A stretch of 64,000 nucleotides of DNA, taken from Lentisphaerae bacterium RIFOXYA12_64_32. GTDB lineage: Bacteria > Verrucomicrobiota > Lentisphaeria > Oligosphaerales > YB12-FULL-65-16. The DNA is taken from assembly GCA_001803235.1 (NCBI GenBank), contig MHBL01000140.1, positions 1 to 64,000 on the forward strand, written 5' to 3'. Positions 15,944 to 33,979 of this stretch are shown here, piece by piece; position 1 is the stretch's first letter, and each line of letters starts with the position of its first letter. The notes under the pieces are model-generated. The model saw only the letters and a list, made by a program, of their open reading frames with translations, made no database searches and was not told the origin of the DNA. Made by a program: the position numbers and the translations under genes.

Positions 15944-18463
15944 CTACTTCGCCTTGGTGACGCCTAGGACGGTCTGGGGATCGAGCGAGAAGTAGCCGGG
16001 GAGTTGCGGGCCGGGCTTGAGGTAGACGTCGTCCAGCGTCCCCTTGTCCGCTTTCCCCGGCACGAGCTTCCAGGTGCCGGCTTGGCCGGGGGCGACGTTG
16101 ATCAACTGCGTATCGATCGTTTTGTCCACCGTGCTGAAGCTGGCGACCTGCTTGCCGTCCGGCGCGTAGAGTTTCGCCGCGGCGGTTTCGCCCGGGGCGT
16201 CGGAGGACAGCCACAGGTCGAAGCTGGCCACACCCTCCGGCACCTCGAAATAGAGGGGTGTCGTCTGGCCCAGGAAATGCAGGCCGCGGCTGTCGACGGT
16301 GCCGGCCAGGGCCCAGGCGGCGTTCTTCACCGCGATGGCAAAGCTAGCCGAACCTCCCGCGATGACGAACTGGTAATAGTCTGAGCCCGCGGTTGGCAGC
16401 GTGACTGGCATCTCGATGCTCGCAATGCCCTGGTCCACGCTGGTTCCCGCGTCGTCGTAGAGCTGCCACTTCAGCAGTTTGCCGCGGCTGGTGACGTCGC
16501 TGAAGTTGACGGTGGCTGCGTTGGCGCCGGTGGGCTTGATGACCAGGCGCTGGTCGCCGCGCAGCAGGAAAGGTGTCATCGCTTCGGCATTGGGCGCCGG
16601 CAGAGGTCGGACGGACGCCAGTTTCTCGCCCGCGCCGGCTTTGCCGCCGGGTGCGGTCGGGACGATGGCGAGCGAGCCGGTCCACGGCTTCAGGAAGGCG
16701 AAGAACTCCTTGTCGGGCAGGTAGAAGCTGGATGCTTGCGGGTTTTCTACGGCCTTGAACTGACGCAGATTCCAGTGCAGGATGGTCAGGTTCGCGCCCA
16801 GCATGCTCAGCCGTGCCTTGGCGTGCGGGTCGGCTGTCTTTGCCTCCGCGGCACGGTAGAGCTGTTCGAGTCTTGCGAAGTTCGCACCGTAGACCTTTCG
16901 CAACCGGTCCTCTGAGAGTACATAGGTCTCGTTGTGGTTGGCGTTGAAGTATGCGTCCGTCGCGGCGTCCAGGAGCGTGTAGAACTGCTTCATCTCCGGC
17001 GCGCCTTCGGCGTAGCACAGGCGGATGTACTCGTCGAACAGTGCGTCCACGTCCGCGTCGGGGTTCCAGGCCAGCCTGGCGAGGAGGTAGTTCATCGGTC
17101 CGGCATAGCCCCACGCCGGGTTGCCGTAGACGTAGACGCCTTTCATCTGTGCCTGCTTCAGGCGCGGGTAGAGCCACTTCAGGATCTTCAGCCCGGGCGG
17201 GTTGATGCCGCCCATTTCGTTGTGGACGCAGTTGGGCAGGTCGTAGTAGGCGATGTTCGTGGTCACCTTGCCCCACTGCGGCACCAGCTCGTCCCAGCGC
17301 TTCTGCATGTCGGGACGGTAGAGCGTGAACCCGTAGTCGAAACTGGGCGCCCACACGAGGAACATGTTGGGGGCCAGTTGGAACGGCTTGCTCGGCGGGT
17401 AGACGTAATCGGCATAGACGTAGCCGGCCAGGATCTTGTGCGGGTACTTCTGCGCCGCCAACTGCGCGACCTTGTTGTAGAAGGCGATGATGGCCGGTGT
17501 TACCGACAGGCCGCCGTTGGGGTCTTTCTCGTAGAGGGCCTTGCAGTTCGCGCACTCGCACCAGCCGCCGCCGTCCGAGGGCGACAGCGAGAAGCATGTC
17601 GCCTGGGGCCGTTCGTCGAAGTACTTGATGGCGCGGTCGGCAAACTCGCGGATGAGGCCGTCACTGGTCGGGCAGAGCTTGGAGTACTCGCTGGCTGGCG
17701 GGATGCGCGTGCCGCCATGCTCGGCGAACCAGTCCGGGTGCGTGCGGAAGTCATCCTGCGTCGGCCATTGCCAGTTGTGGCTGTGGTAGAGGGAAAGGCT
17801 CAAGCCGAGGCGTTGCCGGGCCCACCAGCGTTTCACCTCAGGCTGGTTTTCCTGGATATACGGGACGCGCCGGTTCAGGAAGAACGGCGCGTCGCTGACG
17901 TCGGCGCCAGGGACGGTGATCGTCGGGCGGGCGGGAACGTACTCGCCGTGCTCGCCCGGCATCAGCCAGCGTACGCCCAGGAACTGCTCGATGAACGCGT
18001 ACACGCCGTTGGCCGTGCCGCTGCTGGTGCCGCCCTGCGGGGTCGTGACCTTGTCCGCGGTATCGGGACCGAGGATGAATACATTCCGTTCCCGCGCTGC
18101 GATGCGGAAACCCTCCAGGGGCATTGCGTCCGAGTTCAGGCCGGCCTGCGCGGCAACCGGTGTGTTCCCCAGCGCGAGCATGGGCTCACGCGGTTCGTTG
18201 ACGAGCGGCAGCCTGGCGCCGCTGACCTTTTCGATGTAGGCCTGCAGGTCTTCGGCGGCGGCCCGCACCGACGCGGTCGCGGTCGCGTCGGTGTAAATGG
18301 CGTAGGCCGACTGGCCGTTTTCGACCAGAGTCGGCGGCGCGGCGACGACGGGTGCCGCAGTCACGGCTTGGGAACGGTGCACCGGCGGTTGCGCCTGCTC
18401 GCACCCGGCCAGGAGCAGAAGAGCGGAAATGGCAACGACGGGGGCGCTGACTGTGGGCTTCAT
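15944..18463 (-). CDS. DUF4838 domain lipoprotein, glycosidase-like
   Basis: An 839-residue protein. A lipoprotein signal (LLLLAGC, Cys21) is followed by an N-terminal alpha/beta domain (about 50-140, AYAIYTDATATASVRAAAED) like the N-domain of GH67/GH84/GH20 enzymes. A TIM-barrel-like DUF4838 region (about 175-560) carries a WCECANC cysteine pair and the SLSPSDGGGW segment. The C-terminal third is beta-rich, probably carbohydrate-binding. DUF4838 proteins are abundant in PVC bacteria and Bacteroidetes and are presumed to act on polysaccharides at the cell surface; no activity can be named. A strong AAGGAGAG site precedes the ATG. It follows the glycosidase at 18711 on the same strand. Confidence 0.87.
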   Translation of the reverse strand: MKPTVSAPVVAISALLLLAGCEQAQPPVHRSQAVTAAPVVAAPPTLVENGQSAYAIYTDATATASVRAAAEDLQAYIEKVSGARLPLVNEPREPMLALGNTPVAAQAGLNSDAMPLEGFRIAARERNVFILGPDTADKVTTPQGGTSSGTANGVYAFIEQFLGVRWLMPGEHGEYVPARPTITVPGADVSDAPFFLNRRVPYIQENQPEVKRWWARQRLGLSLSLYHSHNWQWPTQDDFRTHPDWFAEHGGTRIPPASEYSKLCPTSDGLIREFADRAIKYFDERPQATCFSLSPSDGGGWCECANCKALYEKDPNGGLSVTPAIIAFYNKVAQLAAQKYPHKILAGYVYADYVYPPSKPFQLAPNMFLVWAPSFDYGFTLYRPDMQKRWDELVPQWGKVTTNIAYYDLPNCVHNEMGGINPPGLKILKWLYPRLKQAQMKGVYVYGNPAWGYAGPMNYLLARLAWNPDADVDALFDEYIRLCYAEGAPEMKQFYTLLDAATDAYFNANHNETYVLSEDRLRKVYGANFARLEQLYRAAEAKTADPHAKARLSMLGANLTILHWNLRQFKAVENPQASSFYLPDKEFFAFLKPWTGSLAIVPTAPGGKAGAGEKLASVRPLPAPNAEAMTPFLLRGDQRLVIKPTGANAATVNFSDVTSRGKLLKWQLYDDAGTSVDQGIASIEMPVTLPTAGSDYYQFVIAGGSASFAIAVKNAAWALAGTVDSRGLHFLGQTTPLYFEVPEGVASFDLWLSSDAPGETAAAKLYAPDGKQVASFSTVDKTIDTQLINVAPGQAGTWKLVPGKADKGTLDDVYLKPGPQLPGYFSLDPQTVLGVTKAK

Positions 18464-18489
18464 GTGCCTCTCCTTATCCTCCCCGATTG

Positions 18490-18602
18490 GAGACGAAGAT
18501 CAGAGACAAAGACTAGAGACGAAGATCAGAGACAAAGACTAGAGACGAAGATCAGAGACGAAGACTAGAGACGAAGATCAGAGACGAAGACTAGAGACAA
18601 AG
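18490..18602. repeat. 13-bp tandem array (GAGACRAAGAYYA)
   Basis: Roughly eight and a half units of 13 bp alternate between GAGACGAAGATCA and GAGACAAAGACTA, giving a 26-bp higher-order repeat. It lies in the promoter-side gap of the DUF4838 gene. Two or three related GAGACAAAGACCCA units recur at about 32920-32955, upstream of another glycosidase gene. Confidence 0.88.
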
Positions 18603-18710
18603 GGCCACATTCCGGCCGCTCATCTTTGTCTCAGGTCTTTGTCTCTCGGCTCGGTCTTCGCCCGGGATCTCCACGTTGAAAGTGGCACTCGTCCGGGTGT
18701 GGCCGGAACA

Positions 18711-20843
18711 TCACTCCAGCATTTGGCACTCGCCGTTTGCCCAGTCGGCGTCGTACAGGCGCGGGACGCGGGTGCCGGGGAAGGCGGGCGAGGCGCGGTC
18801 GATGCCTTCCACCGCGTCGATCTGCAGGCCGCCGAGGGCCTCGAAGAAGCCCCAGATGGCGATGCCGCGCGGGTAGAAACACAGGTTGTTGCCCTTGAAT
18901 GTCTCGAAGAACATTTTGGGTTCCTGGGTGTTGGTGACGACCTGCCACTCCCAGTAGCGGTCGGCCAGGGCGCGGAGGTCGACGCCGCGGTAGAAGGCGG
19001 CCATGTCCCGGAGCATGTTCATCGAGATCCAGCCGGGGTTGCGCGCGAACCCTGCGAGGTTCTGCATCGACTCCGGCATGCTGGCGCGCTCGAAATGGAA
19101 ATCGGTGTGCACGCAGCCGTACTCGCGCAGGCAGCGTTGCGTGGCGACCTGGAGATCTTCGCGGAGTTTTTCCTCGTCGAGACCGACGTCGTGGCCAACC
19201 ATGTCAAACGGCACCAGGCCGTTGACGGTGTAGATGTGCGGTGCGTCCCAGCCGGGCACTTCCGGCAGATCGAGTTTCTGGCCCGACCACGGGTCGACAA
19301 CGCCCTGCGCGCTCTTGTCCAGGAGCGTCACGAAGTGATCGTCGGCCCAGCCTTTCTTGTGGACCAGGCTACGGATCTTCTCGGCGGCGGCGTTGCATTC
19401 GAACACCATGGTTGTGCGGTTCAGTTCGGCGAGCATCTCGGCGCCGGCCTCGAAAGCGGCCAGGCATTTGACCGCCAGGTAGGTCTGGCAGCGTCCGAAC
19501 TGGATGGCGGGCGACGCGTCGTCAATGGTGTTGGCCACGCCGACGCTGGGGACCCCGCAACCGGTCGTGTCGCAGGCGGAGAGGAATCGCAGGTACTTCT
19601 CGAGCACCGCCGCGTGCCGGCGCAGCATGGAGTCGTCGCCCGTTCGCCGCCAGTAGGCGTAGGACAGGATGAGGTAATTGGCGGTCTCTTCGACTTCCAT
19701 CTCGTGGTGGTACTCCTGCCCGCCGGCACTGGCGTGGGCGCCGGTGTCGTGCGACAGGAACAGCGTGCCATGGCCGCGCTCGCCCGCCGTTTTGGCGCCG
19801 TCCTTGGAGAATTCCGGCCAGAAGTCGAGTTCGATCTTGAGCAACTCGGGCCAGACCGCGAGATAGAACGGCGCCTGAGTGTACTCCACGTCCACGGTGG
19901 AATGATAGTAGCAGGAGCCTTCCCAGACACTGAACCAGTCTTCGCCCTTGGCGCGCAGGCACCACCACGTGTCCAGGAGCCAGGAGTGCAGGGTGTAAGC
20001 CAGGAGGTTGTTGACGCTTTTCGAGCAGTTGTTCCGGCCGACGATACCGTCGACGTTCTGAGCGTTGTCGAAGAGGGCTGTCGGGTTGCTCCGGGCCCAG
20101 TCGCACACCGCATCGAGCCCCGCAAACGTTTGGGTGTACTTGAACGGGCACATCACGCCCTGCACGCTCAGAGTTGGAGCGCTGAACGTGCACCAGGCCA
20201 GGTCCAGCGTCGTGGTGGGTTCTGTCCCGAACGCTACGGTCTGCACGAATTCTGCGCCGCGCAGCATGCCCCGAAGCGCCAGCACGCGGTCCTGCTGTGG
20301 CACGTCCTGGGTTACCGGGTTGGCCTTGCCGGCGTCAGGAGTGGTGGCGCTGCGGACGCTGTTGAAGCGCAGGGCCAGGGCGTCGTGGCCTTCAGGCTGC
20401 ACCGCGATGCCGGGGCCGCTGAACTGCACGAACAGTTCGACGTCCTGCGGGTCCGATTCTTTCTTCTCCCAGCGGAAGGCGCCGCCGATCTTTTCCGCCT
20501 CGACGCGCAGGCCGAGGACCGGCGTGGTGGAGAACGCCGCATCGCGCGGGCGGAACGGGGTCAGCGCGGTGAGCTTGACCTTGACGCCGCTGGCGGCATC
20601 GATCCCCATCAGTGCCATGGAGCAGGGGGTAAGGCGTTGGTCGTGGAAGCGGAAGGTCTGTCCGTCCGGGGTCAACGGCAGCACCAGTTCGCGTCCGGCA
20701 ATCCGTGCCCCGACCTTCAGATGCAGTTCGGGCAACTTGTCAAAACGGTCGAACCGCACCACCCCGCATTTCCGCGCCAGCGGGTTAATCAGCAGTCCGT
20801 GCCTGGAACCCAACACGCCGACGGCATCACACATCAACTGCAT
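18711..20843 (-). CDS. Six-hairpin glycoside hydrolase-like protein (GH52/GH116-like)
   Basis: A 710-residue protein without a clear signal peptide. The N-terminal 300 residues are beta-rich. The C-terminal two thirds look like an (alpha/alpha)6 barrel. Segments recall GH52 beta-xylosidases and GtaA-type proteins: LSHDTGAHASAG, EETANYLILSYAYWRRTGD, NTIDDASPAIQFGRCQ and a closing CFYPRGIAIWGFFE block. The DDA aspartates near residue 440 are candidates for the general acid. Assignment to an exact family is uncertain. An excellent AGGAGGTG site precedes the ATG. It is co-oriented with the DUF4838 gene, and the pair suggests a small polysaccharide-use operon interrupted by the 13-bp array. Confidence 0.72.
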   Translation of the reverse strand: MQLMCDAVGVLGSRHGLLINPLARKCGVVRFDRFDKLPELHLKVGARIAGRELVLPLTPDGQTFRFHDQRLTPCSMALMGIDAASGVKVKLTALTPFRPRDAAFSTTPVLGLRVEAEKIGGAFRWEKKESDPQDVELFVQFSGPGIAVQPEGHDALALRFNSVRSATTPDAGKANPVTQDVPQQDRVLALRGMLRGAEFVQTVAFGTEPTTTLDLAWCTFSAPTLSVQGVMCPFKYTQTFAGLDAVCDWARSNPTALFDNAQNVDGIVGRNNCSKSVNNLLAYTLHSWLLDTWWCLRAKGEDWFSVWEGSCYYHSTVDVEYTQAPFYLAVWPELLKIELDFWPEFSKDGAKTAGERGHGTLFLSHDTGAHASAGGQEYHHEMEVEETANYLILSYAYWRRTGDDSMLRRHAAVLEKYLRFLSACDTTGCGVPSVGVANTIDDASPAIQFGRCQTYLAVKCLAAFEAGAEMLAELNRTTMVFECNAAAEKIRSLVHKKGWADDHFVTLLDKSAQGVVDPWSGQKLDLPEVPGWDAPHIYTVNGLVPFDMVGHDVGLDEEKLREDLQVATQRCLREYGCVHTDFHFERASMPESMQNLAGFARNPGWISMNMLRDMAAFYRGVDLRALADRYWEWQVVTNTQEPKMFFETFKGNNLCFYPRGIAIWGFFEALGGLQIDAVEGIDRASPAFPGTRVPRLYDADWANGECQMLE

Positions 20844-21177: not shown

Positions 21178-21283
21178 CGCCTTTTGCACAGCCTTCTCCC
21201 TTTGTCGATCTAACAGCACAGGTCGGTTTTTTTTCCTGTTTCGGATAGGCAAACGCGGGAATTGCGTCTAATATAGCTTTATA

Positions 21284-21381
21284 GGAGAGGTGGCTTGAAC
21301 GGAAAACCGCCCGGTTGGTTTCCTGGGGCTTCGACCGGGCGGGGCCGGGTTGGGTCGCCGCGTCATGAATCGACAAATTAA
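21284..21381 (+). promoter_or_regulatory. Possible leader peptide and hairpin before tolC-like gene
   Basis: A near-ideal GGAGAGG ribosome site (21284-21290) sits 4 nt before a TTG (21295) that opens a 28-codon reading ending at 21381, overlapping the ATG of the TolC-like gene (21365). The TolC-like gene itself has no visible ribosome site. Inside the leader is a stem with 11-bp arms, 21307-21317 and 21332-21342 (one G-T pair). Coupled translation or attenuation of the operon is a reasonable inference. It could also be chance. Confidence 0.4.
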
Positions 21382-22867
21382 CTTTTACCGGGCAGTTCGA
21401 CTGCTGTGCTGCGGTGGGATTGCCCTGATCCTGGGTGCCGTTGATTGTGCGTCTGCCGCGGAACCGGCTGAACTGGCTGAGCTGGTGGCGGCGGCGTTGT
21501 CGGGGAATCCGCGTGTTCAGGCGGCCCGACACCGGGTGGACCAGATGCTGGCGAAGCACGAGGCCACCTTCGGTTTCCTGGATCCTTCCATGTTCGCCGC
21601 GACCGGGTATGCCCAGAGAAGCCGCGGCACTCCCGGTGCGTCGGGCTTTACGGCACTGACGGACAACGCCTTGGACAATCAGGCCGGTGTCCAGACGCCG
21701 CTTCGGCCCGGCGCCTACCTCGCCGTGGGCGGCGCGGAACGTCTGCTCACCGAACCGGGGGACGGCAGCAATCAGCAGTACCAGAGCCTGGCATCGGCGC
21801 GCCTCCGGATCCCCCTGCTGCGCGATCGTGGGTTTCGCCTGTGGGATTCCGAGCAGGCCATGGCGGTTGCAGAGTACAACCAGGAAGTCAGTCAGTTCAC
21901 CGCCGCGATCCAACAACTGCGCTGGGAGATCGAACTGGCCTACATTGCGGTTCTGGAAGCGGCGGAGATCCGCAGTTCCGCCCACGACGCCACGGTGCGG
22001 TTGAGTGCTTTGCTGAATGAAACCAAGGAGTTGGTTCGCCTCAAAGTCGTGCCGGAGTACCAGCTTCATCCCACCGTCATGGAGAAGTCGCTTCGCGAGG
22101 AGGAGGAGATCAGCGCCAAGGACGGGTACGAGCAGGCCTTAATCCGTCTGCGTCAGGTGGTCGGCGGCGGCGGTGCTGTGGCGGTGAGCAGCGGCGTGGG
22201 TGCGTTGGTCGAGTGGGCTGCCGGTGTGACGCTGTCGGAGTCCGACGATGTCGCCGTCGCCATGGCCACCCGGGGCGACAGTCAGGCGATTCTCAATCAG
22301 GTCGAGTTTTCGCATGCCGAACTCGGCCGAGCGGAGGAGAATCTGCGCAGTGACCTTGACCTCAATCTGGGTACGAGTTGGCAGGGCGAGTCACCCAACA
22401 ACCCCTTTGGGGGAGGGCGCGCCCTGTCTGGGCATCATATGGGGGGTGACATGACCCTCGTGTGGAGCAAGACGCTGGGGCTCAGGCGTGAACGGGCTGA
22501 GGTGCACCGTTTGGAGAGTCGCATCGCCGAACTGATGGCCTCGTTGGCGCAGATGAGGGACTTGGCCGTGGCTGAGATCGCGGCCGCCCGCCTGGCGTAT
22601 CAGTCGGCCCAGGATCGGCTTCGGGCGGTCGAGGGCGCCACCGAGGCGGCCCGGAAAGAGATGGAGGCCGAGGAGGAGCGGTTTCGCCTGGGCGAAGGCC
22701 GCAGCCGTCAGGTTCTGGACGCGCAGCAGGACCTGAATGGTGTCAGCCAGCGGCGTACGCACATTGCCGCCGCCCTATTGCGGGCGCATTCGTCGTACCG
22801 TCGCGCTACAGGATACGTCGGTCAGGAGTTGGCGCTGCAGCCGTCCCTCCCACCGACGAAACCGTGA
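21365..22867 (+). CDS. TolC-family outer membrane channel protein
   Basis: A 500-residue protein. A signal peptide (RLLCCGGIALILGAVDCASAA) ends near residue 32. The mature chain is mostly long amphipathic helices in two similar halves, as in TolC. Typical features are AELVAAALSGNPRVQAARHRV near the start and a late EERFRLGEGRSRQVLDAQ segment. It should form the outer-membrane duct of a tripartite exporter. It is the first gene of a five-gene operon (zinc-ribbon protein, HlyD, two half-ABC proteins). No ribosome site is visible at its ATG. Confidence 0.9.
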   Translation: MNRQINFYRAVRLLCCGGIALILGAVDCASAAEPAELAELVAAALSGNPRVQAARHRVDQMLAKHEATFGFLDPSMFAATGYAQRSRGTPGASGFTALTDNALDNQAGVQTPLRPGAYLAVGGAERLLTEPGDGSNQQYQSLASARLRIPLLRDRGFRLWDSEQAMAVAEYNQEVSQFTAAIQQLRWEIELAYIAVLEAAEIRSSAHDATVRLSALLNETKELVRLKVVPEYQLHPTVMEKSLREEEEISAKDGYEQALIRLRQVVGGGGAVAVSSGVGALVEWAAGVTLSESDDVAVAMATRGDSQAILNQVEFSHAELGRAEENLRSDLDLNLGTSWQGESPNNPFGGGRALSGHHMGGDMTLVWSKTLGLRRERAEVHRLESRIAELMASLAQMRDLAVAEIAAARLAYQSAQDRLRAVEGATEAARKEMEAEEERFRLGEGRSRQVLDAQQDLNGVSQRRTHIAAALLRAHSSYRRATGYVGQELALQPSLPPTKP

Positions 22868-22877
22868 GGATTCAACC

Positions 22878-23708
22878 ATGGCCAAGTTGCTCAATTTCCT
22901 GGGTAAAAAAGACAAAGATGACGCCGACAGCGACGAGCAGCAGAAGGACACCGAGGCAGTCCAGAAGGCGCTCCTGCACGAAACCCAGCAGGAGAACCTG
23001 CAGCAGGACATCTCCATCCTGGACGACACAGACGGTGAGACGGAGCAGCGTCTCCGCAAAACCGCCGAGAAGGAGGTGCAGAGCGCGGCGGAGGACTCGC
23101 TGAAGCGGCTCCTCGTCGTGCAACTGGGGCGGTGCCCCAGTTGCGGGGAGCACCTCCACCAGCAGTTGGGTGCGTCCATCTGCGACGCGTGTGGCTGGCA
23201 CACGTTTGACGGGCCATCGCGCGGCCCGGTGCGCGTTCATCTGCGCAGCGGACGGCCTCCCATTGAGGGCGAACGGTGCTATGTTGTCAAGGACGGCTAC
23301 GTCTTGGTGTTGAAGCAGGATCTGGTGGTGGCCAAGGTCCCGCGTGACGCGTACGATTACGTTGAGTACATCTGGGCGGAAAGCGAAGTCCAGCAACGGC
23401 AGAAGCAGCTCAACGAGCGGTTGCAGATTGCCTGTGGCTGGTGCAACAAGCCCACCAATCCGGAGCAGGATGGGTTCCATCTGGTCCACGTGGCCTTGGG
23501 GTCATCTCAGGAGCGGTACTGCTTCTGTTCGGACGAGTGTTACGAGGCGTTTAGGAAGATGTATCCGGCGCGCGTGCACCGGGACTGTTACGAGCGGGAC
23601 TGCGAGGAGTGTAACCTGTGCCTGAAACGGTACGGTAATGTCGCCGAGGGGTTACGCATGCTCGCGAAGGATTACATTGCGGTGAAGAAGAAGGAAAAGC
23701 AGGAGTAG
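22878..23708 (+). CDS. Cysteine-rich zinc-ribbon protein in the export operon
   Basis: A 276-residue protein, unrecognised. The first 80 residues are charged and heptad-like. A four-cysteine zinc ribbon follows (CPSCGEHL, then ICDACGW). A central domain of about 80 residues has no cysteine motif beyond one Cys. The C-terminal 110 residues hold a dense cluster: CGWCNKP, YCFCSDEC, then DCYERDCEECNLC. The middle piece recalls the FCSxxC form of MYM/TRASH zinc fingers. There is no signal peptide or membrane helix, so it is cytoplasmic. A GAGGA site precedes the ATG, 10 nt after tolC. Its place between TolC and HlyD suggests a regulator, adaptor or cargo-handling factor of the exporter. Confidence 0.78.
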   Translation: MAKLLNFLGKKDKDDADSDEQQKDTEAVQKALLHETQQENLQQDISILDDTDGETEQRLRKTAEKEVQSAAEDSLKRLLVVQLGRCPSCGEHLHQQLGASICDACGWHTFDGPSRGPVRVHLRSGRPPIEGERCYVVKDGYVLVLKQDLVVAKVPRDAYDYVEYIWAESEVQQRQKQLNERLQIACGWCNKPTNPEQDGFHLVHVALGSSQERYCFCSDECYEAFRKMYPARVHRDCYERDCEECNLCLKRYGNVAEGLRMLAKDYIAVKKKEKQE

Positions 23709-23814
23709 CCAGGGAATGGTTCGATGATTCACCGTTCAAGGGTTCACGGTTGGTCGAATCTACGCTCACAACCGATACCCTGAACCCCGAACCCTGAGCC
23801 TTGAAATTTGAAAT

Positions 23815-24858
23815 ATGGGCGACTATCGCACAACCACAGGTGAGGCGCCGCCGGCGACCGGCAAGGAACGGCGGCGGACGGTGTCCATTGTTCTGCTGAT
23901 TTTGGTTCTCCTCTTTGGCGGCATCGCGCTGTCCGGCACGCTCATCCAGGTTCCACGCTACGTGCGTGCTGCCGGGTATGTTACGACCGAGGACTACGCT
24001 GAGGTGCGGCCGTCACAGGAGGGCACGGTGGCCGAGATCCTGACCGCGTCCGGGACGCGGGTCGAGAAGGGCGATATCCTGGTCAAGCTCGACGCCTCCG
24101 TGGAGATTGCCACGGCGGACGAAGCGAAGAGTCGCGTGCACCAGACCGAGGCCGACATCGCCCGTCGCCAGGCCGAGATTGCCGAGAAGAAGCGAACGCT
24201 TCAGGAACAGATAGCCATGGCCAAGCTGCGGCTCCAGAATGCCACCACCAAGCTGTTGCGGACGCAGGAGTTGCTGGCAAAGGGGCTGGTGGCTGCCAGT
24301 GCGCTGGAGGACGACCGGCTCAAGGAGGAAATCACTCGCGCTGAGCTGACCTCATTGCTCAGTCGTGACGAGACGATCTACGAGAAGGAACTCGCGGTGC
24401 TGGCCCAGGAACTCCAGGCCCGCAACGAGGCGGTGGTGCGGGCCGAGACCCGTGTCCGGGCCCGGGAGATCCGCGCTCCGATCACCGGCCAGGTGTTGCG
24501 GTATGAGTTCGTTATCGGTCAACTGGTCCGGACAGACCATGTGCTGTACGAGATCTTCGGCGGCGACAAGAAGGTGCTAAAGCTGCGCGTCGGAGAACGC
24601 TACGCCACGCGCATAGCGACCGGGCAGCGATACGAGGCCAAGTTGGCTTCGTACAGGGGGGTCATCAAGGACGTCGAGTTCTACGGTGAGGTCCAGTACT
24701 TGCGCAACGTGATCCAGACCGAAGGGCAGCAGACGTATCGGGTGGCCTACTGCAGCTTTGACGACCAGGGACTCACGGTCCCGCCGGGAACCACGGCCGA
24801 AGCCAAGATATTCTACGGCAGATCGTGCCTGTTCCTGTATCTGATTGGCGTGGACTGA
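23815..24858 (+). CDS. HlyD-family periplasmic adaptor subunit
   Basis: A 347-residue membrane fusion protein. A short cytoplasmic tail and one membrane helix (about 23-44) lead to a first half lipoyl motif (EVRPSQEGTVAEILTASG, 63-80, then KGDILVKLD), a coiled-coil hairpin (about 100-200), a second lipoyl half (IRAPITGQVLRYE) and a beta-barrel region. It would bridge the ABC exporter and the TolC channel. It lies 106 nt after the zinc-ribbon gene, in a gap of CCTGAAC-like heptamers, with no obvious ribosome site. The start is the first ATG and fits the topology. Confidence 0.9.
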   Translation: MGDYRTTTGEAPPATGKERRRTVSIVLLILVLLFGGIALSGTLIQVPRYVRAAGYVTTEDYAEVRPSQEGTVAEILTASGTRVEKGDILVKLDASVEIATADEAKSRVHQTEADIARRQAEIAEKKRTLQEQIAMAKLRLQNATTKLLRTQELLAKGLVAASALEDDRLKEEITRAELTSLLSRDETIYEKELAVLAQELQARNEAVVRAETRVRAREIRAPITGQVLRYEFVIGQLVRTDHVLYEIFGGDKKVLKLRVGERYATRIATGQRYEAKLASYRGVIKDVEFYGEVQYLRNVIQTEGQQTYRVAYCSFDDQGLTVPPGTTAEAKIFYGRSCLFLYLIGVD

Positions 24859-25105
24859 AGCCGCGGGCATGCGGTGGGGGCGAGCCGATCGGGCTGTCCC
24901 AGCTTTCATTTTCGGTGTTGAGTGTTGGACGTTCGATGTTGGGTGTTCGGTATTCTGACGGCTGTGGGGCTCGCCTCGAGAGACGCTCCGGAACAGGCGC
25001 AATCGTCGAGCAGGGGTGCACGGTTCGGGTGTCCGACCGGGCGTCGCGTGCACGGCGCGGCAGGACGGTCGTGCGGCGTCCGGGCTTAACGGCATTCGAT
25101 CCGGT

Positions 25106-26857
25106 ATGCGAAGACGTTCATCTAAGCCAACCGGCATTGCGGAATTTGTCCGGCCTTACGCGGGGGGGCTGGCGCTGCTGCTGTTTCTGACCGTTGTGCT
25201 GTCGGTCATCTCGATGTGCCCGCCGCTGATCACGCGCGCCATCATTGACCGGGTTCTGACTCGCGGCGACCACGCCCTGTTCGTGCCCTTGGCCTGCTGC
25301 ATGTTCGCCATCCCCTTGATCGGTGCGCTCTGTGGCTACATTCATACCATCGGCATCGCCTACATTGGGCAGCGCTTCGTCTTTGACGTCCGGATCACTC
25401 TGTTCGAACACCTGGTCGGGTTGTCGCTGCGGTATTTCGGCAAGAACAGCGTCGGCAAACTCAGCAACCGCTTGATGGGTGACACCGGTGTGGTGCAACG
25501 GGCACTGACCGCGCAGAGCATTTCCGTCGTATCCGACCTGATCTGCGCCGCATTTGCGATCACCGCCACCTTTGCCATCAACTGGCGCCTGGCCATACTG
25601 CTGACCTGCATTCTGGTCACGTTTGTGGTCAACTACCGTTTCACGATTCGCCGCATCCGCAAGGCGACCCGCGGTTACTGGGGCGCCATGGACCGGCTCT
25701 CGGGCAACATTCAGAACCGGCTGCACGGTACCCTGGCGGTGAAGACGTTCGGGACGGAAGGCCGCGAGCACTCATCGTTCCGCGAGGAATCCCAGGCCAG
25801 TCTCGGTTTGGCCCAGGAGTCCATGGTCGCCTCCAACACGTTTTCGATGAACACGGCACTGTTGGAGAGCATGGGTCGGACCGTGATGTACTTCTCCGCC
25901 TGCGCCCTGGTGCTGCGCGGCGAGCTGTCCTACGGCGATGTCATCGCGTTCCTCAGCTACGCCATGCAACTGCTGTGGCCGGCCATCCGCTTTTCGCAAC
26001 TCGCCAAGGAGTTCCAGGAGGTCGGCATCGCCACCGGCCGCGTGTTCGAGATTTTCAAGGAGGACCCGGAGATCCAGGACCGGCCCGGCTGCATTCCGGT
26101 CTCCCGCCTCCGCGGCCAGGTGGACTTTGACCAGGTCCGTTTTCACTACGAAGAAGGGAAACCTGTCCTGCGCGGCTTTGACCTCCACATCCGGGCGGGC
26201 GAGACGGTGGCTCTGATCGGTCCGACCGGCTGCGGCAAGACCACGGTCCTGTCGCTGCTCATGCGCTTCTTTGACGTCCGCGAAGGCCGGGTCCTGCTCG
26301 ATGGCATCGATATTCGCGATATCCGGATGCGGTCGCTGCGGCACCAGTTCGGCATCGTGCTGCAGGAACCGCTTCTCTTCTCCGTCAGCATTGCCGAGAA
26401 CATCCGCTATTCCCGTTCCAGCGCCACCCAGCAGGAAGTCGAGGACGCCGCCAAGGTGGCCGAGATTCATGACTTCATTGCCTCGCTGCCGGACGGCTAT
26501 CGCACCATCATCGGTTCCGAGGGTCTGGAGATTTCGGTCGGCCAGAAGCAGCGCATCACCATTGCCCGGGCGGTCGTGGCCAATCCTGCCATCCTGATCA
26601 TGGACGAAGCCACCAGTGCTCTGGACAGTGACTCGGAGCAGGCGATTCAGCGCGCCATGGCCCGTGTTCTGGTGAACCGTACGTCGTTTATCGTCGCCCA
26701 CCGGCTGAGCACGATCCGCAACGCCGACCGGATCGTTCTCATCAAGGAAGGACAGATTTTCGAGATGGGCACGCACCTGGAACTGATGGAACGACCGGAC
26801 GGCCAGTACCGCGGACTCTACCTCAAGCACATGGGGTCGGGCGTACTGGAGGAGTGA
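25106..26857 (+). CDS. ABC exporter half-transporter, signature-degenerate subunit
   Basis: A 583-residue fused permease-ATPase. Six membrane helices (about 15-330) precede the nucleotide-binding domain. Walker A GPTGCGKT is at 372-379, Walker B ILIMDE has the catalytic Glu501, and the switch His532 is in VAHRLS. The ABC signature is abnormal: ISVGQ (about 476-480) replaces LSGGQ. The next gene has the opposite pattern. In heterodimeric exporters such as TM287/288 this combination makes one dead and one active ATP site, so the two are partners. The ATG at 25106 gives a usual length; a start at 25016 is possible. The cargo is unknown. Confidence 0.92.
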   Translation: MRRRSSKPTGIAEFVRPYAGGLALLLFLTVVLSVISMCPPLITRAIIDRVLTRGDHALFVPLACCMFAIPLIGALCGYIHTIGIAYIGQRFVFDVRITLFEHLVGLSLRYFGKNSVGKLSNRLMGDTGVVQRALTAQSISVVSDLICAAFAITATFAINWRLAILLTCILVTFVVNYRFTIRRIRKATRGYWGAMDRLSGNIQNRLHGTLAVKTFGTEGREHSSFREESQASLGLAQESMVASNTFSMNTALLESMGRTVMYFSACALVLRGELSYGDVIAFLSYAMQLLWPAIRFSQLAKEFQEVGIATGRVFEIFKEDPEIQDRPGCIPVSRLRGQVDFDQVRFHYEEGKPVLRGFDLHIRAGETVALIGPTGCGKTTVLSLLMRFFDVREGRVLLDGIDIRDIRMRSLRHQFGIVLQEPLLFSVSIAENIRYSRSSATQQEVEDAAKVAEIHDFIASLPDGYRTIIGSEGLEISVGQKQRITIARAVVANPAILIMDEATSALDSDSEQAIQRAMARVLVNRTSFIVAHRLSTIRNADRIVLIKEGQIFEMGTHLELMERPDGQYRGLYLKHMGSGVLEE

Positions 26858-26930
26858 GCGCGGAGCGCGGAGCACGGAGCGCGGAGCACGGAGCACGGAG
26901 CACGGAGCTAGGGAGCTAGGGAGCAGGGAG
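26858..26930. repeat. Heptanucleotide tandem array (AGCACGG)
   Basis: About ten units of AGCGCGG, AGCACGG and AGCTAGGG follow the stop codon of the first ABC gene directly. The period is 7 bp with an occasional 8. It lies between two genes whose products should work as a dimer. Confidence 0.85.
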
Positions 26931-27000
26931 TTCGGAAATTTGGTGGATATGGCCGGGCGTTGAGTTGAGGTGAGCGGGGGCCGCGGGGCGGCCCCGGGCA

Positions 27001-27177
27001 TGAGCCCCGTAATGCGTCAGTCGCGGGTGGACGGTTGGGCGGTAGGTAGATGGCCAACGTGGCGGGAGCGGTTCGCTCCCGCGGGTGTCGGAGCGAGCCG
27101 CTCCGACCACTTTAGGCGTCAGCCCAGGTCAAACTTCGACCTTATCTCCACCCGCAACTGACGCATTACTGAGCCCC
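27001..27177. mobile_element. Complete 161-bp non-autonomous element with 8-bp target duplication
   Basis: Terminal inverted repeats of 23 bp (27009-27031 and 27147-27169, one mismatch) begin GTAATGCGTCAGT. They enclose the two-hairpin module also seen at 14076. Both sides carry the same 8 bp, TGAGCCCC, at 27001-27008 and 27170-27177. This is direct evidence of transposition. The length excludes a transposase, so an unlinked one must have moved it. It sits between the two ABC half-transporter genes. Confidence 0.92.
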
Positions 27178-27215
27178 GGCCGCGTGTGGTTGACAGGGCA
27201 TCGGTGACGGCAGGT

Positions 27216-29192
27216 ATGAAGGCACACCATCGCAAAATACCGTTTCGCCCCCCGGCCAAGCGTTACGACGTGAAGGTCAGCCGGGCCGGTTTGTTGCTCC
27301 GGTTCCTGCGCTGCTACGTGAAGCCGCACCGCTGGTCGATCCTGTTCTGCATTCTGCTGAGCGCGCCGCAGGTTTGCTCGGTCTACCTGATGTCCTACTA
27401 CGGCCGGATCGTCGTGGATCGCATCCTTGTGATCACCCCGTCGGCGCCGGCGCGGCCGCCCCAGGTCGGGGCGGAAAATTACCGTGTCTGGACCGATGAG
27501 AGCAAACGCGTGGGTGGGGCCAGCCTGCCGGGAGAGAGTCAGGGGCGTCGCATCGACATGGGGGTTGCCGCCTCGGCCCGCCCGCCCGGGGCGGGAATCA
27601 TGCTGCTCACGGTCTTCATCCTCTACGCCACCACCCTGATCGGGCTGAATTTCCTGGGGCGCGCGGTGCAGCAGCGCCGGATCCGTGTCGGGCGCCAGAT
27701 AGCCGGGCATCTTCGCGAGGACATGCACGAGAAGATCCTCAGCCTGTCGATGTCGTTCCACAGAGCTCACAGCCCTGGCCGGCTCCTGTCCCGGATCCTC
27801 TCCGATGTCGAGGTGCTGCAGCAGCAGTTGGTGGATACCATCATGATGGTCAGCAACACGGTGATCATGATCTGTACCGGCACGGTCATCCTGCTGACCA
27901 TTGACTGGAAGATTTTCCTGTTTGTGGTCGCCACCGCGCCGGTGTACGCCGTCATGTATCGCTACGCTTCGGAGGTCATCCGGGAGATCAGTTTGGAACT
28001 CCGCCACACCAATACCTGCCTGTGGGGCTTCGTGTCGCAGAAGTTCGACGCCCTCAAGGCCGTGCAGGCCTACGGCCGTGAACGGCTCGAACGGCTCAAC
28101 TTTCACCGGTTGACCTCCTGCTTCCTCCGTGACGCACTGCTGCAGCAGCGCGCTTCGGCCGGCCTGGGCCGATCGGCTGGGATTGTCGGTTCCGCGGCCA
28201 CGACGACGATTTTCCTTTTCGGCGCCACCCGTGTCATGGCGGGGCGGATGACGTTGGGTGAGATGCTTTTCAGCTACTCCACCGCCGCCAGCCTGTTCGG
28301 GCCCGTGCTCGAGTTGGCCCAACTCAACCTGATTTTTGCCAACCTCGGCGTCACCATGCAGCGTGTCGCCGACATTCTCGACACCCCGTTGGAGATCACC
28401 GATGCCCCTGATGCCGTCGAGTTCCCCAGCCCCGTGAAGCGTGGCTTCAGTCTGCAGCATGTCGCCTTCTCCTACGACCCGGAGAATGAGGAGGTGGAAT
28501 CGGTCCTTACCGACGTGAACCTGCACATACCCGCCGGGACGTGGCTGTGCGTCATGGGACCCAGCGGTTCGGGGAAGACCACCTTGCTGTACCTGCTCTC
28601 CCGTCTCTACGAGCCGACCCATGGCAGCATTCTGGTCGATGGTATACCAATGAAGAAGATCAAGACGGATTCGCTCCGCATGCGCATGGGGTTCGTGCCT
28701 CAGGAGGCGAAGATTTTCAGCGGTACGGTGCGCGACAACATCTGCTATGCCTACCCCGACGCGCGCCCCAAGCAGATCATGGCTGCAGCCAAGGCGGCCG
28801 AACTCCACGATTTCATTATGGACATGCCGGTGCAGTACGAGACGATCATTGGCGAGAAGGGCACGACGCTGTCCGGCGGCCAGCGCCAGCGCCTGTCCCT
28901 GGCCCGGGCCCTGCTGACCAGCCCCGAAGTGCTGATCCTCGACGACTGCACGTCGGCCCTGGACGCTGACACGGAAGGCAAGATCCAGACGACCCTGGCC
29001 ACCATCCTGGAGGGCAAGACGGCTGTCATTGTCTCGCAGCGCGTTTCCATGGCTAGGCGCTGCCACAAGATCTGCGTGGTCGACAACGGAGTCATCACCG
29101 AGTACGGTACGCACGATGAACTGATCGCCCGCGGCGGCTTCTACTCTGTCCTGCATGCCCAGCAGACCGAACTGCCGCCGGTCATTTCGTGA
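27216..29192 (+). CDS. ABC exporter half-transporter, Walker B/switch-degenerate subunit
   Basis: A 658-residue fused permease-ATPase. An insert of about 70 residues (about 80-130, ASLPGESQGRR region) separates the first two membrane helices and should lie outside the membrane. The ATPase domain has Walker A GPSGSGKT (448-455) and a canonical LSGGQ signature (about 552). Walker B ends in Asp577 where Glu is needed (LILDDC), and the switch His is Gln608 (VSQRVS). These defects complement the ISVGQ signature of the preceding subunit. The ATG at 27216 is preferred over one 10 codons upstream because the upstream codons abut the transposable element. The gene ends the operon. Confidence 0.93.
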   Translation: MKAHHRKIPFRPPAKRYDVKVSRAGLLLRFLRCYVKPHRWSILFCILLSAPQVCSVYLMSYYGRIVVDRILVITPSAPARPPQVGAENYRVWTDESKRVGGASLPGESQGRRIDMGVAASARPPGAGIMLLTVFILYATTLIGLNFLGRAVQQRRIRVGRQIAGHLREDMHEKILSLSMSFHRAHSPGRLLSRILSDVEVLQQQLVDTIMMVSNTVIMICTGTVILLTIDWKIFLFVVATAPVYAVMYRYASEVIREISLELRHTNTCLWGFVSQKFDALKAVQAYGRERLERLNFHRLTSCFLRDALLQQRASAGLGRSAGIVGSAATTTIFLFGATRVMAGRMTLGEMLFSYSTAASLFGPVLELAQLNLIFANLGVTMQRVADILDTPLEITDAPDAVEFPSPVKRGFSLQHVAFSYDPENEEVESVLTDVNLHIPAGTWLCVMGPSGSGKTTLLYLLSRLYEPTHGSILVDGIPMKKIKTDSLRMRMGFVPQEAKIFSGTVRDNICYAYPDARPKQIMAAAKAAELHDFIMDMPVQYETIIGEKGTTLSGGQRQRLSLARALLTSPEVLILDDCTSALDADTEGKIQTTLATILEGKTAVIVSQRVSMARRCHKICVVDNGVITEYGTHDELIARGGFYSVLHAQQTELPPVIS

Positions 29193-29319: not shown

Positions 29320-29394
29320 TCCGGCGTAGCTCAGTGGTAGAGTAGGCGGCTGTTAACCGCTTGGTCCCTGGTTCAAATCCAGGCGCCGGAGCCA
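29320..29394 (+). tRNA. tRNA-Asn (GTT anticodon)
   Basis: A full cloverleaf is visible. The acceptor TCCGGCG pairs with CGCCGGA. The D stem is GCTC/GAGT, the anticodon stem GGCGG/CCGCT encloses CTGTTAA with anticodon GTT, and the T arm is CCTGG-TTCAAAT-CCAGG. Discriminator G and an encoded CCA (29392-29394) follow. A promoter and a strong terminator bracket it, so it is a single-gene unit. Confidence 0.97.
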
Positions 29395-29404
29395 TTTTTT
29401 TCAA

Positions 29405-29432
29405 GCCTCGCGAGAGCGGGGCTTTTTTTTTT
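29405..29432 (+). terminator. Rho-independent terminator of tRNA-Asn
   Basis: Stem GCCTCGC (29405-29411), GAGA loop, GCGGGGC (29416-29422) and a run of ten T. It is the clearest intrinsic terminator in the window. Confidence 0.93.
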
Positions 29433-29737: not shown

Positions 29738-32700
29738 CTACGGCGCGGTGCCGTCGGCGGCTTCCAGCCGCATGCCTTCGATCCAGAGTGTGCCGGGTTC
29801 GGTGAAGAAGAATTCGAACCGCGCGTTGGTGCTGTCGCGTGTGGCGGTGAAGTCCGTGCTGAACGTCTGCCATTCCTCGCCGACCCGGAACTGCCGCTCC
29901 AGCCCGCAACCCTGCCATGGCTTGATGTTGTAGACGGCCACGCCGATTGTACCGGTCAGGCCTTGCTGCCGGGCGCGAAAGGCCACCCGGTATCGTCGAT
30001 CTTTCAGGATCCGATCCTGGCCGTCACGGGACAGAATGATCCAGCCATTGACGAAACGCGTGCAGTTGATCTTCTGACAGTGGAATTCGGCGAATCCGGC
30101 CTCAATTGCTGCCTCCGCGGCGTTGGCTTGGCCGGTCGACGTTCCGGTGCTTTCCGGGTTGAGCCGCCAGCCGTCCGCCAGCCCGTCGTTGTCCGCGTCC
30201 GCGATGGTTGGGACTAAGGTGCGGGAGGACTCGACCCGCGCGCCGCGGTCGGTGGTCAGGCGGAAGGACACTTGGTCCTGGGGCTGCGGCGTCCGGGTGC
30301 CGCGCAGTTGCAGGTGCGGTGTCAACTCGGCGCGTGGCGCCAGCGCCGAGACCTGCATCGAACTGGGGATGGCTTCGAACCCATCCGGAACCTGGAACGT
30401 CAACTCACCGCTGACCGGGCGCTCGTCGCGATTTCGCAGCACCAGGTCGATGTCAACCGGCTTGCCGTCCGGTTTCGGGATGGCAAATGGCTGCACCTGC
30501 ATGGCTACGGGCGAGAGCGCCCGTACCCAGGCGGTGAACGTCGCGGTTTGCCGGTCCGGCAGCGTCACGGTGATAGGCAGGCGCTGCATGCCGCTGGCTT
30601 CGGGGGCGACGGTGAAGGCGAGTCGCGTCTCCCCCACCGCTTGCCACCTCAGGCGTTGCGCGGTCTGCGCCTGAGCCGCGGCAATGCCTGGCGGCGGATC
30701 GGGACGAAGAGTCAGTTCCGCGGGGTCCGCAAACCCGTTTTGGATCCGGCACTGCACGGTGAAGGAACGCCCGGCCATGACTTCGGTGGGGTATTGGATC
30801 TCGATCGGCTGTACGCGACAGCACCACCTCGGAGAGTATGGGGCCTTCAAGGTAGACGACGCGGCCGGACAGCGAGAGGTAGCGGCCCTGCTCCCTCAGG
30901 GTCCAAGAGCCCGAGTTGCCGAACATGTCGAAGAGTGTCAGTTGCCGTTCCGTCGGGGCGCGCAATTCGACGAACTCGCCCGGGCGTTCGCTCCATAGGG
31001 CCAGCACATCGACGTCCCCGCGATGGAACAGCATGCCATGCACCGGCGCCTCCACCTCGCAGCGGCGGACCGGCGCGGCGCCGGTCAGGCGCGATGTCAA
31101 CGCGGCATAGCTGAGCATGGCCGGTCGCGGAAAACCCTTTCCGTCGCAGAGACCGAACATCCCCAGCGAGAAATCATGCCAGCAGAGGTTGGCCACACAT
31201 CCGGCGCCGTGCGTCAGCAGGTAGGTCCGGGCCAGGTATTGGCCGTGTTCCTCCTCGGACACGGTCGGCCAGTCGTTTCCGGTCAGTGCCCAACCGATCT
31301 CGGTCGCCCAGATCTCGGCGTCCGGGCGTGGGCGTGAACTCAGCCACGCGCGGCAGTCCTGGAACATGACTTGGATGTCCGCCGGCTTGCCGGCCAGGGC
31401 GTTGCCGCAGTGGGCTTCGGGGTTGTTCCCGGGCCGGTAAGGGTGGACCACGACCCCGTCGTAGTCCTTGTCCAGCCCCGCCTTCAGGCAGCGGTCGACG
31501 AACGCCAGGCTGTCGGCGGAAACGAGTACCTTGTTCGTTGGGTCAATGTCCTTCAGGATGCGGTAGGTGCGGCGGTGCAGATCGACGTACTTCTCGACGC
31601 TCCAGCCGTCCAGGCCCGGATCAGCCTTGTAGGAAATCTCGTTCCAGCTCTCCCATGCCTGAATTTTACCCCGATAGCGCGTCGCGACTTGGCGTACGTA
31701 TTCCTCCCAGTCGGCCATATCCTTGGGGCACCCGGGGGTGGTCGCGGACTTCTCCGGCACGTGGTCCGGTGACGACCACGCGGGCTGGCCGATGCCGCCC
31801 AGCACCCCGATGGTCTTGAGCCCGGATTCTTTGGCGGCCGCCATGCGCTCGTCGTGCCAGTTCCAGCGCCACTCACCTTTTTTTGGCTCGATCCATTGCC
31901 AGCAGAACCAGTGCCGGCTCCACTCGATCCCGGCCGCCGCCATGGGTTCGAAACTGGAAACGAATTCGTGGTGATTCACGCCGAAGATCGTGCCCTCTTG
32001 GACGCGTTTGGGCGATGGCTCCATGATCCCGAAGCGGATTTCGCGCTGCGCGACGGTCCGGTCACCGGTGTCGACGCGGAACTTGGCGCGATAGAACCCA
32101 TTCCGTGCCTTGGCGAGAGGCACCACGTACGATCCGGTGGCGGCCTCGCCGACGACGGCCAGGTGCACGGTACACTCACCCTTGCTTGGCGGCGTACCCG
32201 TGTCGCCCGACACATCGTAAGTCACGCGGCAGTCACCCGCCAGGGCGGTCGCCACGCTCAGCGTCAGGTCCTCACCGCGGTAGAGGAGGTGAAAAGGGTG
32301 GAGTTCGGCGCGGACGTGCCACTTTCCGGGTTCGGGCGCGTAGCTCCACTCGGGCTTGGCCGGTGCGGTGTCGTCGATCCACCGCACGTCGCACCAGTCG
32401 GCCAAGTCTCCGTTCGAGTAGGCCTGCGCGTCCGTGATCAGCTTAACCTGGCGTGAACCGTTCAGTGGCACGGTGAAGCGTACTGGGGCGTCGTCACGGC
32501 TCAGTGCCGGGCTTTGCCAGAGCCGCTTGCCGTCCGCCCATATGGAGAAGTACGTGTCGCCGCCGGCCACGACCGTCTCGTCGTCGATCCCGGCCAGGCC
32601 GGTGACACCCGTGACTCCGGCGGGCACGTCGAACTCGAGGATGGAGAAGCCGCGGCACCCAAACCCGTGCTGCCAGGTGCGCAGGGCTATCATCAAAGGC

Positions 32701-32900
32701 CGGCTGTTGGCGTTCCGGTCCCGTTGGACTTCCGGGCTGGCGCGGCCGTACGCCGGGTCGTAGACGCTGTAGATCAACCCCGAGAGCCACGGCGTGTCCG
32801 ACACCCAACGCACCGCGCCGGCAGTGTCCGGTGCGGCCGTGGCAGGGGTTGCGAATGCGGCCGCGGCGAACAGAACGCACAGGACCCGTCGAGGCATCAT
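29738..32900 (-). pseudogene. Frameshifted clan GH-A glycoside hydrolase with NPCBM-like domain
   Basis: The product would have about 1050 residues. A signal peptide (RRVLCVLFAAAAFATPATAA) is followed by an NPCBM-like carbohydrate-binding domain (about 25-150), then a (beta/alpha)8 barrel of GH39/GH5 type with the acid/base in WNEIS and the nucleophile in ATEIGWA, then beta-sandwich domains. At about 30812 the frame changes: LSEVVLS must be joined to VQPIEIQYP, which needs removal of one base. The downstream frame (to 29738) continues with Ig-like and CBM-like domains, both well conserved in composition. The start at 32900 has GGGAG upstream; a longer reading is repeat DNA. A recent mutation or an assembly error could explain the shift. 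Confidence 0.83.
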
Positions 32901-33170: not shown

Positions 33171-33172
33171 AG

Positions 33173-33942: not shown

Positions 33943-33979
33943 GCTGGTTCTTCGGTCCTCGGTTCCCGATTGGCGAGCG

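Follow-up and report, generated by a model that had tools for sequence, protein, structure and literature searches.

A conserved five-gene ABC exporter cassette with a probably metal-binding cysteine-rich protein in Lentisphaeria-type bacteria

Type I secretion is independent of Sec and its cargo is either an unfolded protein with RTX repeats or a C-terminal signal, or a peptide whose leader is cleaved by a C39 peptidase. Among type IV ABC exporters, heterodimers in which one ATP site is degenerate are also known, such as TM287/288, TmrAB and BmrCD. To our knowledge, a cytoplasmic subunit with metal sites is not generally described for tripartite ABC exporters, and our search of the literature found no tripartite ABC exporter with one. 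The ABC-type tripartite exporters include HlyBD-TolC, MacAB-TolC and DevBCA-HgdD (PMC8277102). In addition, PVC and other bacteria have a secondary locus coding for SecA_DEAD, Peptidase_M50 and GAF-HlyD proteins (PMC4452313). Here we have analyzed a gene cassette found in the genome of Lentisphaerae bacterium RIFOXYA12_64_32, within a stretch of 64,000 nucleotides that we call the window. Five genes, all on the + strand and flanked by polysaccharide-degradation genes, were found at 21365-29192 in the order tolC - ZnR - hlyD - ABC1 - ABC2 (Table 1), the same genes and order given in a preliminary description of this DNA. That description had set the limits of the locus at 21284 and 29192. The end is right, while the likely start of tolC is about 80 bases downstream, at an ATG (21365) inside the ORF 21350-22867.

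Table 1. Features of the exporter cassette, with positions in the window
Feature	Position	Strand	Basis
tolC-type outer-membrane channel, ~500 aa, N-terminal signal sequence	21365..22867	+	Pfam OEP PF02321, E 7e-19
ZnR, 276 aa, predicted cytoplasmic, cysteine-rich	22878..23708	+	conservation; AF2 models; Foldseek
Zinc ribbon of ZnR, C86-x2-C89 ... C102-x2-C105-G-W	23133..23198	+	conservation among homologues
C-terminal module of ZnR, C186-x2-C189...F-C217-x3-C221 (TRASH/FCS-like) and C237-x4-C242-x2-C245-x2-C248	23424..23636	+	conservation
hlyD-type periplasmic adaptor, 347 aa; one N-terminal membrane helix, hairpin, barrel-sandwich	23815..24858	+	Pfam HlyD_D23/HlyD_3
ABC1 half-exporter	~ATG 25106 to 26857	+	Pfam ABC_membrane and ABC_tran; motif counts
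ABC2 half-exporter	~ATG 27216 (ORF 27186) to 29192	+	Pfam ABC_membrane and ABC_tran; motif counts

As in type I secretion and other ABC tripartite exporters, an ABC exporter, a membrane-fusion adaptor of the HlyD/MacA type and a TolC-type channel of the OEP family are present, here encoded together and all with Pfam matches above cut-off. The differences are a predicted heterodimeric ABC pair, a fourth, putatively cytoplasmic protein with candidate metal sites (ZnR), and a locus devoid of cargo, RTX or peptidase domains. Actually, Pfam did not detect domains of C39 peptidases, RTX proteins or bacteriocins in the five proteins, in agreement with what had been read from the ORFs alone. The earlier label of undescribed system is fair for the cassette as a whole and for the ZnR family, which appears to be undescribed, whereas channel, adaptor and ABC by themselves make up an ordinary tripartite exporter. 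We have compared the cassette with two other kinds of loci. The NHLP (NHLM) bacteriocin export loci also have two ABC proteins and a HlyD-type adaptor, but the NHLM_micro_ABC1/ABC2/HlyD models were missed widely (TIGR03794/03796/03797 gave 24, 318 and 326 bits against cut-offs of 156, 853 and 709) and neither the C39 peptidase domain nor a bacteriocin gene is found in the cassette. The SecA_DEAD/HlyD/M50 locus shares with it a type I secretion-like adaptor, OEP genes and its presence in PVC bacteria, but the SecA_DEAD, Peptidase_M50 and GAF-HlyD proteins are all absent from the cassette, and its assignment to that locus was rejected (PMC4452313). When the neighbours of the loci were clustered, none turned out to be a conserved cargo gene. 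Upstream of tolC, an MFS transporter recurred in 11 loci, and downstream of ABC2 a secreted protein recurred in 8; being neither general nor present in the window, they fall outside the cassette core.

ZnR was found in 43 of the 48 genomes of the order to which the window belongs and in 18 sampled genomes from other classes of the phylum, always as a single copy. Genomes lacking the cassette include G015, G016, G058 and G059. The five genes appeared in order at 40 of the 58 loci fetched and most of the others stop at a contig end. The homologues of ZnR do not lie mostly outside such loci and the arrangement is not that of a single genome; either of these would have spoken against the preliminary description. 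Wherever the contig permits the gene order is the same, save for a few split or rearranged loci, and it is far beyond chance. In most loci the tolC orthologue lies upstream of ZnR, although a recognizable TolC gene was missing beside it in a few (L077, L080 and L107). In a sample of 388 genomes, the cassette-type HlyD was present if and only if ZnR was (41/41 genomes), with one ZnR without HlyD and the exceptions located at contig ends. Complete HlyD orthologues scored at least 340 bits and the paralogues at most 87. ABC2 orthologues, with bimodal scores, were also concordant with ZnR. Besides, the trees of the cassette genes were congruent (r between 0.72 and 0.97; permutations reached at most 0.39). 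The five-gene set is inherited as one unit across the whole order of these Lentisphaeria-type bacteria. ZnR had no homologues in plasmid and phage collections, PHROGs gave only weak zinc-ribbon matches, and a known defence gene was discarded since the PADLOC matches were at chance level.

We have examined the nucleotide-binding motifs in 51 ABC1 and 44 ABC2 sequences. ABC1 has intact catalytic Walker-B Glu and H-loop His and a deviant signature (ISVGQ/LSVGQ). ABC2 has the LSGGQ signature, Asp in place of Glu in the Walker-B (LDD), mostly Gln in place of the H-loop His, and a periplasmic loop of ~50-65 residues between TM1 and TM2. This asymmetry was seen in all the 44-51 sequences. The complementary degeneration supports the prediction that both proteins form an asymmetric heterodimer, which had earlier been guessed from their adjacency. 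The same complementary loss (Walker-B Asp and changed H-loop in one half, deviant signature in the other) characterizes TM287/288, TmrAB and BmrCD, but the pair described here is encoded together with a HlyD adaptor, a TolC channel and ZnR. It belongs to no named family, the bit scores being far below the NCBIfam cut-offs.

ZnR matched no Pfam or NCBIfam family above cut-off. Its parts are a coiled helix (35-82), the zinc ribbon (84-107), an Sm/SH3-like small beta barrel (~118-165) and a C-terminal cysteine module with two sites (183-253). In a first alignment of 14 sequences 13 cysteines were conserved. In the set of 59 sequences C215 was not, and the four of the ribbon and the eight C-terminal ones were essentially invariant. 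These 12 cysteines form three metal-site motifs, a CxxC/CxxC ribbon, a TRASH/FCS-like CxxC...CxxxC and a C-x4-C-x2-C-x2-C. Counting only homologues that have the segment, C86 and C89 were kept in 56/57 and C102 and C105 in 53/53; the eight C-terminal cysteines were unchanged in 59/59 sequences, shortened homologues included. The best conserved part of ZnR, and of the cassette as measured, is the C-terminal module: its median pairwise identity is 70 percent, while the other cassette proteins have 33 to 55 percent. Two AF2 models of modest confidence (pLDDT 66 and 65) predict for it a beta hairpin followed by a helix, and its top Foldseek matches were all to eL24/Rlp24 (best E 0.02; all the ZnR fold matches were above E 0.01). 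By sequence it stays below every Pfam gathering score. YHS gave a weak match in 17 of 18 members, YHS and DUF7576 were below gathering in the member shown in full, and the best E values over all members were about 0.001 and 0.0005, respectively. We describe the module as a candidate TRASH/YHS/eL24-like treble clef that is sub-threshold by both sequence and fold. The first reading of zinc ribbon plus FCS was right in kind, both for the ribbon (CPxCG...CxxCGW) and for the FCS. With the TRASH/YHS/FCS superfamily, which includes ribosomal eL24 and plant FLZ, ZnR shares the CxxC...FCxxxC pattern, the modelled hairpin-helix and the eL24/Rlp24 matches, but it also has the zinc ribbon, the small barrel and the further, invariant C-x4-C-x2-C-x2-C site (PMC4047054). 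Fingers of the FCS type are known to mediate protein interactions (PMC4047054). ZnR is, judging by these motifs, probably metal-binding.

Strict co-inheritance, congruent trees, the asymmetry of the ABCs and the conserved C-terminal module all count in favour of ZnR being a partner subunit, and we hold with moderate confidence that the tripartite exporter is powered by its ABC pair and needs ZnR as a cytoplasmic, metal-binding subunit for the loading or gating of transport. Also in favour are the weak TRASH/eL24 likeness of the module, the part that FCS-type fingers play in protein interactions (PMC4047054), and the example of LmABCB3, an ABC half-exporter that carries a TRASH motif (PMC4700571). 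ABC1 and ABC2 would form in the inner membrane an asymmetric type IV exporter, in which one ATP site hydrolyses and the other is degenerate, joined by the HlyD-type adaptor to the TolC-type channel, so that cargo taken from the cytoplasm or the inner membrane would leave the cell in a single step. The C-terminal module of ZnR, built around the putative TRASH/treble-clef metal site and the second four-cysteine site, would be a conserved docking surface, extended by the ribbon and the small barrel, through which ZnR may bind the cytoplasmic face of the exporter, the cargo or both. The metals would most likely be structural Zn, although a redox-active or Fe-S centre is conceivable at the second site. 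The origin of the cargo, whether gene-encoded or synthesized, would lie elsewhere in the genome. This cargo is probably shared by the order, as an envelope component or a secreted product, and not a strain-specific toxin. In one genome (G236, locus L112) neither HlyD nor TolC genes are near ZnR, which instead follows a related ABC pair, an arrangement that points to the pair as its partner. However, three split loci do not single out the ABC pair, as in G033 and G034 ZnR is with tolC and hlyD-ABC1-ABC2 is on a different contig, and in G014 tolC-ZnR-hlyD is apart from the ABC pair. Related ABC pairs are present in the phylum without ZnR, which shows that such heterodimers can in general do without it.

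ZnR might instead sense metals or redox state, or act as a metallochaperone, for a pump that exports a metal complex, a metallophore or a thiol compound. The analogies for this are TRASH/YHS domains in copper handling and the CydDC and Atm1-type exporters. In its favour are the weak YHS/TRASH resemblance of nearly all members, the three cysteine motifs (the C-x4-C-x2-C-x2-C lacks a clear zinc-finger precedent, and Fer4 was weakly matched by 12 of 18 members) and the family-specific conserved cysteines of ABC2 (455, 588 and 626), near the nucleotide site. LmABCB3, a mitochondrial ABC half-exporter of Leishmania that acts in heme and iron-sulfur biogenesis, similarly ties a TRASH motif to a type IV ABC exporter, although there the motif is within the ABC protein itself and there is no HlyD/TolC (PMC4700571). 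On the other hand, neighbour clustering found no recurrent metal-homeostasis gene adjoining the cassette, its near-universal presence in the order would be more expected of a constitutive role than of stress efflux, the conservation of the four ligands of every site fits structural sites, and generic RND/EmrA/HlyD models give the adaptor its best scores. We consider this alternative unlikely.

Quite improbable, in our opinion, is that ZnR regulates expression of the operon or binds RNA and is merely co-transcribed with the exporter. The Sm-like barrel, the ribbon and the eL24-like finger suggest it, as the folds that Foldseek indicated (Sm/Hfq and eL24) are frequent among proteins that bind nucleic acids, but these matches are weak and neither a helix-turn-helix nor a known DNA-binding family was found in ZnR with Pfam and NCBIfam. 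ZnR also tracks the exporter strictly across large evolutionary distances, and it is the C-terminal module that stays when the ribbon and barrel (L113) or the barrel (L114-L116) are lost. An ordinary multidrug or MsbA-like lipid A exporter beside which ZnR is incidental seems to us very unlikely. The best-scoring models for both ABCs are MsbA/MsbA_rel and P-glycoprotein-like ones, but the two proteins reach only 415 and 350 bits with the MsbA equivalog TIGR02203 (cut-off 602) and carry heterodimer motifs, while MsbA is a homodimer. A replacement of MsbA was rejected as well, since the same genome has another, single MsbA-like exporter (L132) with 450 bits, and the one-to-one link of ZnR and cassette over ~60 genomes excludes an incidental neighbourhood. 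Finally, that ZnR is itself the leaderless cysteine-rich cargo of a type I system is highly unlikely, for although it lacks a signal peptide, lies inside the cassette and no other candidate cargo was found there, it has no RTX repeats or double-glycine leader, ranges in length between 131 and 291 aa while its core is preserved, and keeps 12 invariant cysteines (likely metal sites) and 70 percent C-terminal identity across families, unlike a fast-evolving secreted product.

The preferred reading, ZnR as a partner subunit of the exporter, can be taken further, although only tentatively. The cassette may be a four-component system in which a cytoplasmic metalloprotein with a new two-metal module, possibly redox-active or Fe-S, is the obligatory gate or cargo loader of the heterodimeric ABC exporter, itself coupled to HlyD and TolC, serving an order-wide and possibly essential pathway of envelope biogenesis or secretion, with a conserved cargo, in Lentisphaeria-type bacteria. 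That almost every member of the order has the cassette, in one copy, suggests a core envelope function. As ZnR would be obligatory and its C-terminal module is so conserved, it should reveal how the cargo reaches the pump. These bacteria have few experimental systems, and ZnR provides a named target for the discovery of the cargo.

The five co-oriented genes of the cassette code for a TolC/OEP channel, a cysteine-rich protein of 276 residues (ZnR), an HlyD-type adaptor and two half-size ABC exporters (ABC1 and ABC2). The five-gene export locus of the preliminary description proved to be real and conserved, all five genes being found in the same order in 40 of the 58 fetched loci, with most of the remainder cut by a contig end. 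The core works like a tripartite ABC exporter and has the components that define one, and we regard the cassette as a variant with a previously undescribed, obligatory subunit, ZnR, that carries putative metal sites. No description of it was found in the literature searched, although such absence is weak evidence. Identity with MsbA, with the NHLP bacteriocin exporter or with the SecA_DEAD/HlyD locus of PVC bacteria (PMC4452313) was rejected, a tested defining feature failing in each case. The nearest precedent for coupling a TRASH-type metal motif to such a transporter is LmABCB3 (PMC4700571), an ABC half-exporter with a role in heme and iron-sulfur biogenesis.

Across 84,980 species genomes, a scan that detects close relatives only gave 17 full-length ZnR homologues, all from assemblies of the Lentisphaerae, Lentisphaeria, Victivallales or Oligosphaeraceae type or from one bearing the label Verrucomicrobia or uncultured bacterium, besides one archaeal TRASH-like fragment. 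The window's class was sampled with 198 genomes, and ZnR was present in 43 of the 48 belonging to the window's order against 1 of the 150 others. The 388 genomes spread over the phylum added 18 outside the class; two extra matches there (E 0.006-0.008) were discounted as chance level. There is one copy per genome, save for genes split over contigs.

Complete genes for the cassette-type HlyD score at least 340 bits and paralogues at most 87. In the 388-genome sample HlyD and ZnR occurred together in the identical 41 genomes, ZnR being alone only in genome G236. In the class sample the two genes disagreed in three genomes (G035, G041, G042), with the locus at a contig end or the genome 64 percent complete; four genomes (G015, G016, G058, G059) had neither gene, and G002, outside the window's order, had ZnR and a divergent, low-scoring HlyD. 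ABC2 scores were bimodal (at least 543 versus at most 440 bits) and its presence was concordant with the rest of the cassette; in G429 it is located at the contig start. The tree distances of the five proteins were correlated (0.72 to 0.97), far more strongly than under permutation of the labels, with a contribution from shared species history. It is established that adaptor, channel, asymmetric ABC pair and ZnR are inherited as one unit.

The remaining loci depart from the common order. Two genomes (G033, G034) have tolC-ZnR separate from hlyD-ABC1-ABC2, a third (G014) has the ABC pair apart from the other genes, and at L077, L080 and L107 no adjoining TolC gene was recognised. The G236 locus (L112, 3522-9937) reads ABC1-ABC2-ZnR, with a divergent ABC pair and neither hlyD nor tolC nearby; a divergently transcribed multiheme cytochrome-c-like gene adjoins it. 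Just 5' of tolC, on the same strand, an MFS-type transporter gene is found at 11 loci (L061, L063, L064, L068, L070, L074, L076, L081, L083, L094, L095) and is absent from the window. Eight loci (L074, 15355-16191; L076, L081, L083, L094, L095, L123, L124; two copies in L094 and L095) have, 3' of ABC2, a secreted protein of ~280 residues with a signal peptide, an N-terminal NLxxNGxxExG motif and no Pfam match.

The genes flanking the cassette include DUF4838, GtaA-like and GH52-like, CBM/NPCBM and GH42-like, and TonB-dependent receptor plug domains. Comparison of neighbours indicated that these polysaccharide-degradation flanks are not kept beside the cassette in other genomes. The two repeat-bearing gaps are mostly of a few dozen bases or fewer in relatives.

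Features of the cassette and its surroundings in the window
Feature	Position	Location or strand	Remark
Polysaccharide-degradation genes	15944-20843 and 29738-37100	strand opposite to cassette	flanking
Terminator-like hairpin	21204-21227	5' of tolC	hairpins in window no more numerous than in shuffled sequence
Cassette	21365-29192	+	five genes
ZnR	22878-23708	+	
Decaying short tandem repeat	24914-24949	HlyD-ABC1 gap	GGTGTTCGAGTGTTG x2.5
Decaying short tandem repeat	26856-26930	ABC1-ABC2 gap	GAGCACG x10
ABC2	27186-29192	+	
tRNA-Asn (GTT)	29320-29394	directly 3' of ABC2	
Strong terminator-like hairpin	29403-29424	3' of tRNA-Asn	same limit as for the other hairpin

ZnR gave no match over a cut-off in Pfam or NCBIfam. 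Its 12 cysteines form three groups (C86/C89/C102/C105, C186/C189/C217/C221 and C237/C242/C245/C248), of which the second and third are kept in 59 of 59 homologues. These eight cysteines persist even in four shortened homologues (L113-L116), from which the barrel and either the whole ribbon or half of it are missing. The AF2 model (mean pLDDT 66) predicts a long helix (35-82), a zinc ribbon, a small beta barrel and a C-terminal hairpin-helix. The compact barrel (~118-165) is the best predicted part and resembles Sm/SH3-like folds, with every Foldseek match at E 0.1 or worse. Modelled on its own, the C-terminal module is a beta hairpin plus helix, and its top-ranking Foldseek matches are without exception eL24/Rlp24 (lowest E 0.02); eL24 is a member of the TRASH superfamily of treble-clef fingers. 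A weak YHS sequence match appeared in 17 of 18 members. Median pairwise identity is 70 percent for this module, against 33 (TolC), 49 (ZnR), 45 (HlyD), 55 (ABC1) and 48 percent (ABC2) for whole proteins.

ABC1 has an intact Walker-B Glu and H-loop His, and its signature is of the LSVGQ type in almost every sequence. ABC2 has an LSGGQ signature, a Walker-B LDD (44/44) and an H-loop in which His is replaced by Gln or, rarely, by Met. Judged from these motifs, the catalytic residues of ABC1 and the signature of ABC2 make one predicted competent ATP site, the converse site being degenerate, as in TmrAB and TM287/288 (PMC8277102). The periplasmic TM1-TM2 loop of ABC2 (~50-65 residues, with conserved ends) is a plausible candidate dock for the adaptor. 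Three conserved, family-specific cysteines of ABC2 flank the degenerate site (C455, 42/44; C588, 41/44; C626, 44/44); they may serve in packing or form a redox-sensitive spot. The phylum also has related ABC pairs with no ZnR, HlyD or TolC, so ZnR either joined the cassette's lineage of pairs or was retained with it. In the window genome (10.6 Mb) the ABC_membrane half-exporters number only seven. Two of them form another adjacent pair (G000:C180:2826-5479; L126, L127), the first member of which likewise has a Walker-B Asp and an H-loop Gln.

ZnR would act on the cytoplasmic side, since it lacks a signal peptide and has cysteines that fit metal sites in the reduced state. The conserved contact would be its C-terminal module, through which it may gate the ABC pair or load cargo. 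The L112 arrangement suggests the ABC pair as its partner, to which the split loci lend no further support. No cargo gene was found at the cassette locus and the cassette is constant across the order, which together argue for a cargo made elsewhere and common to the order.
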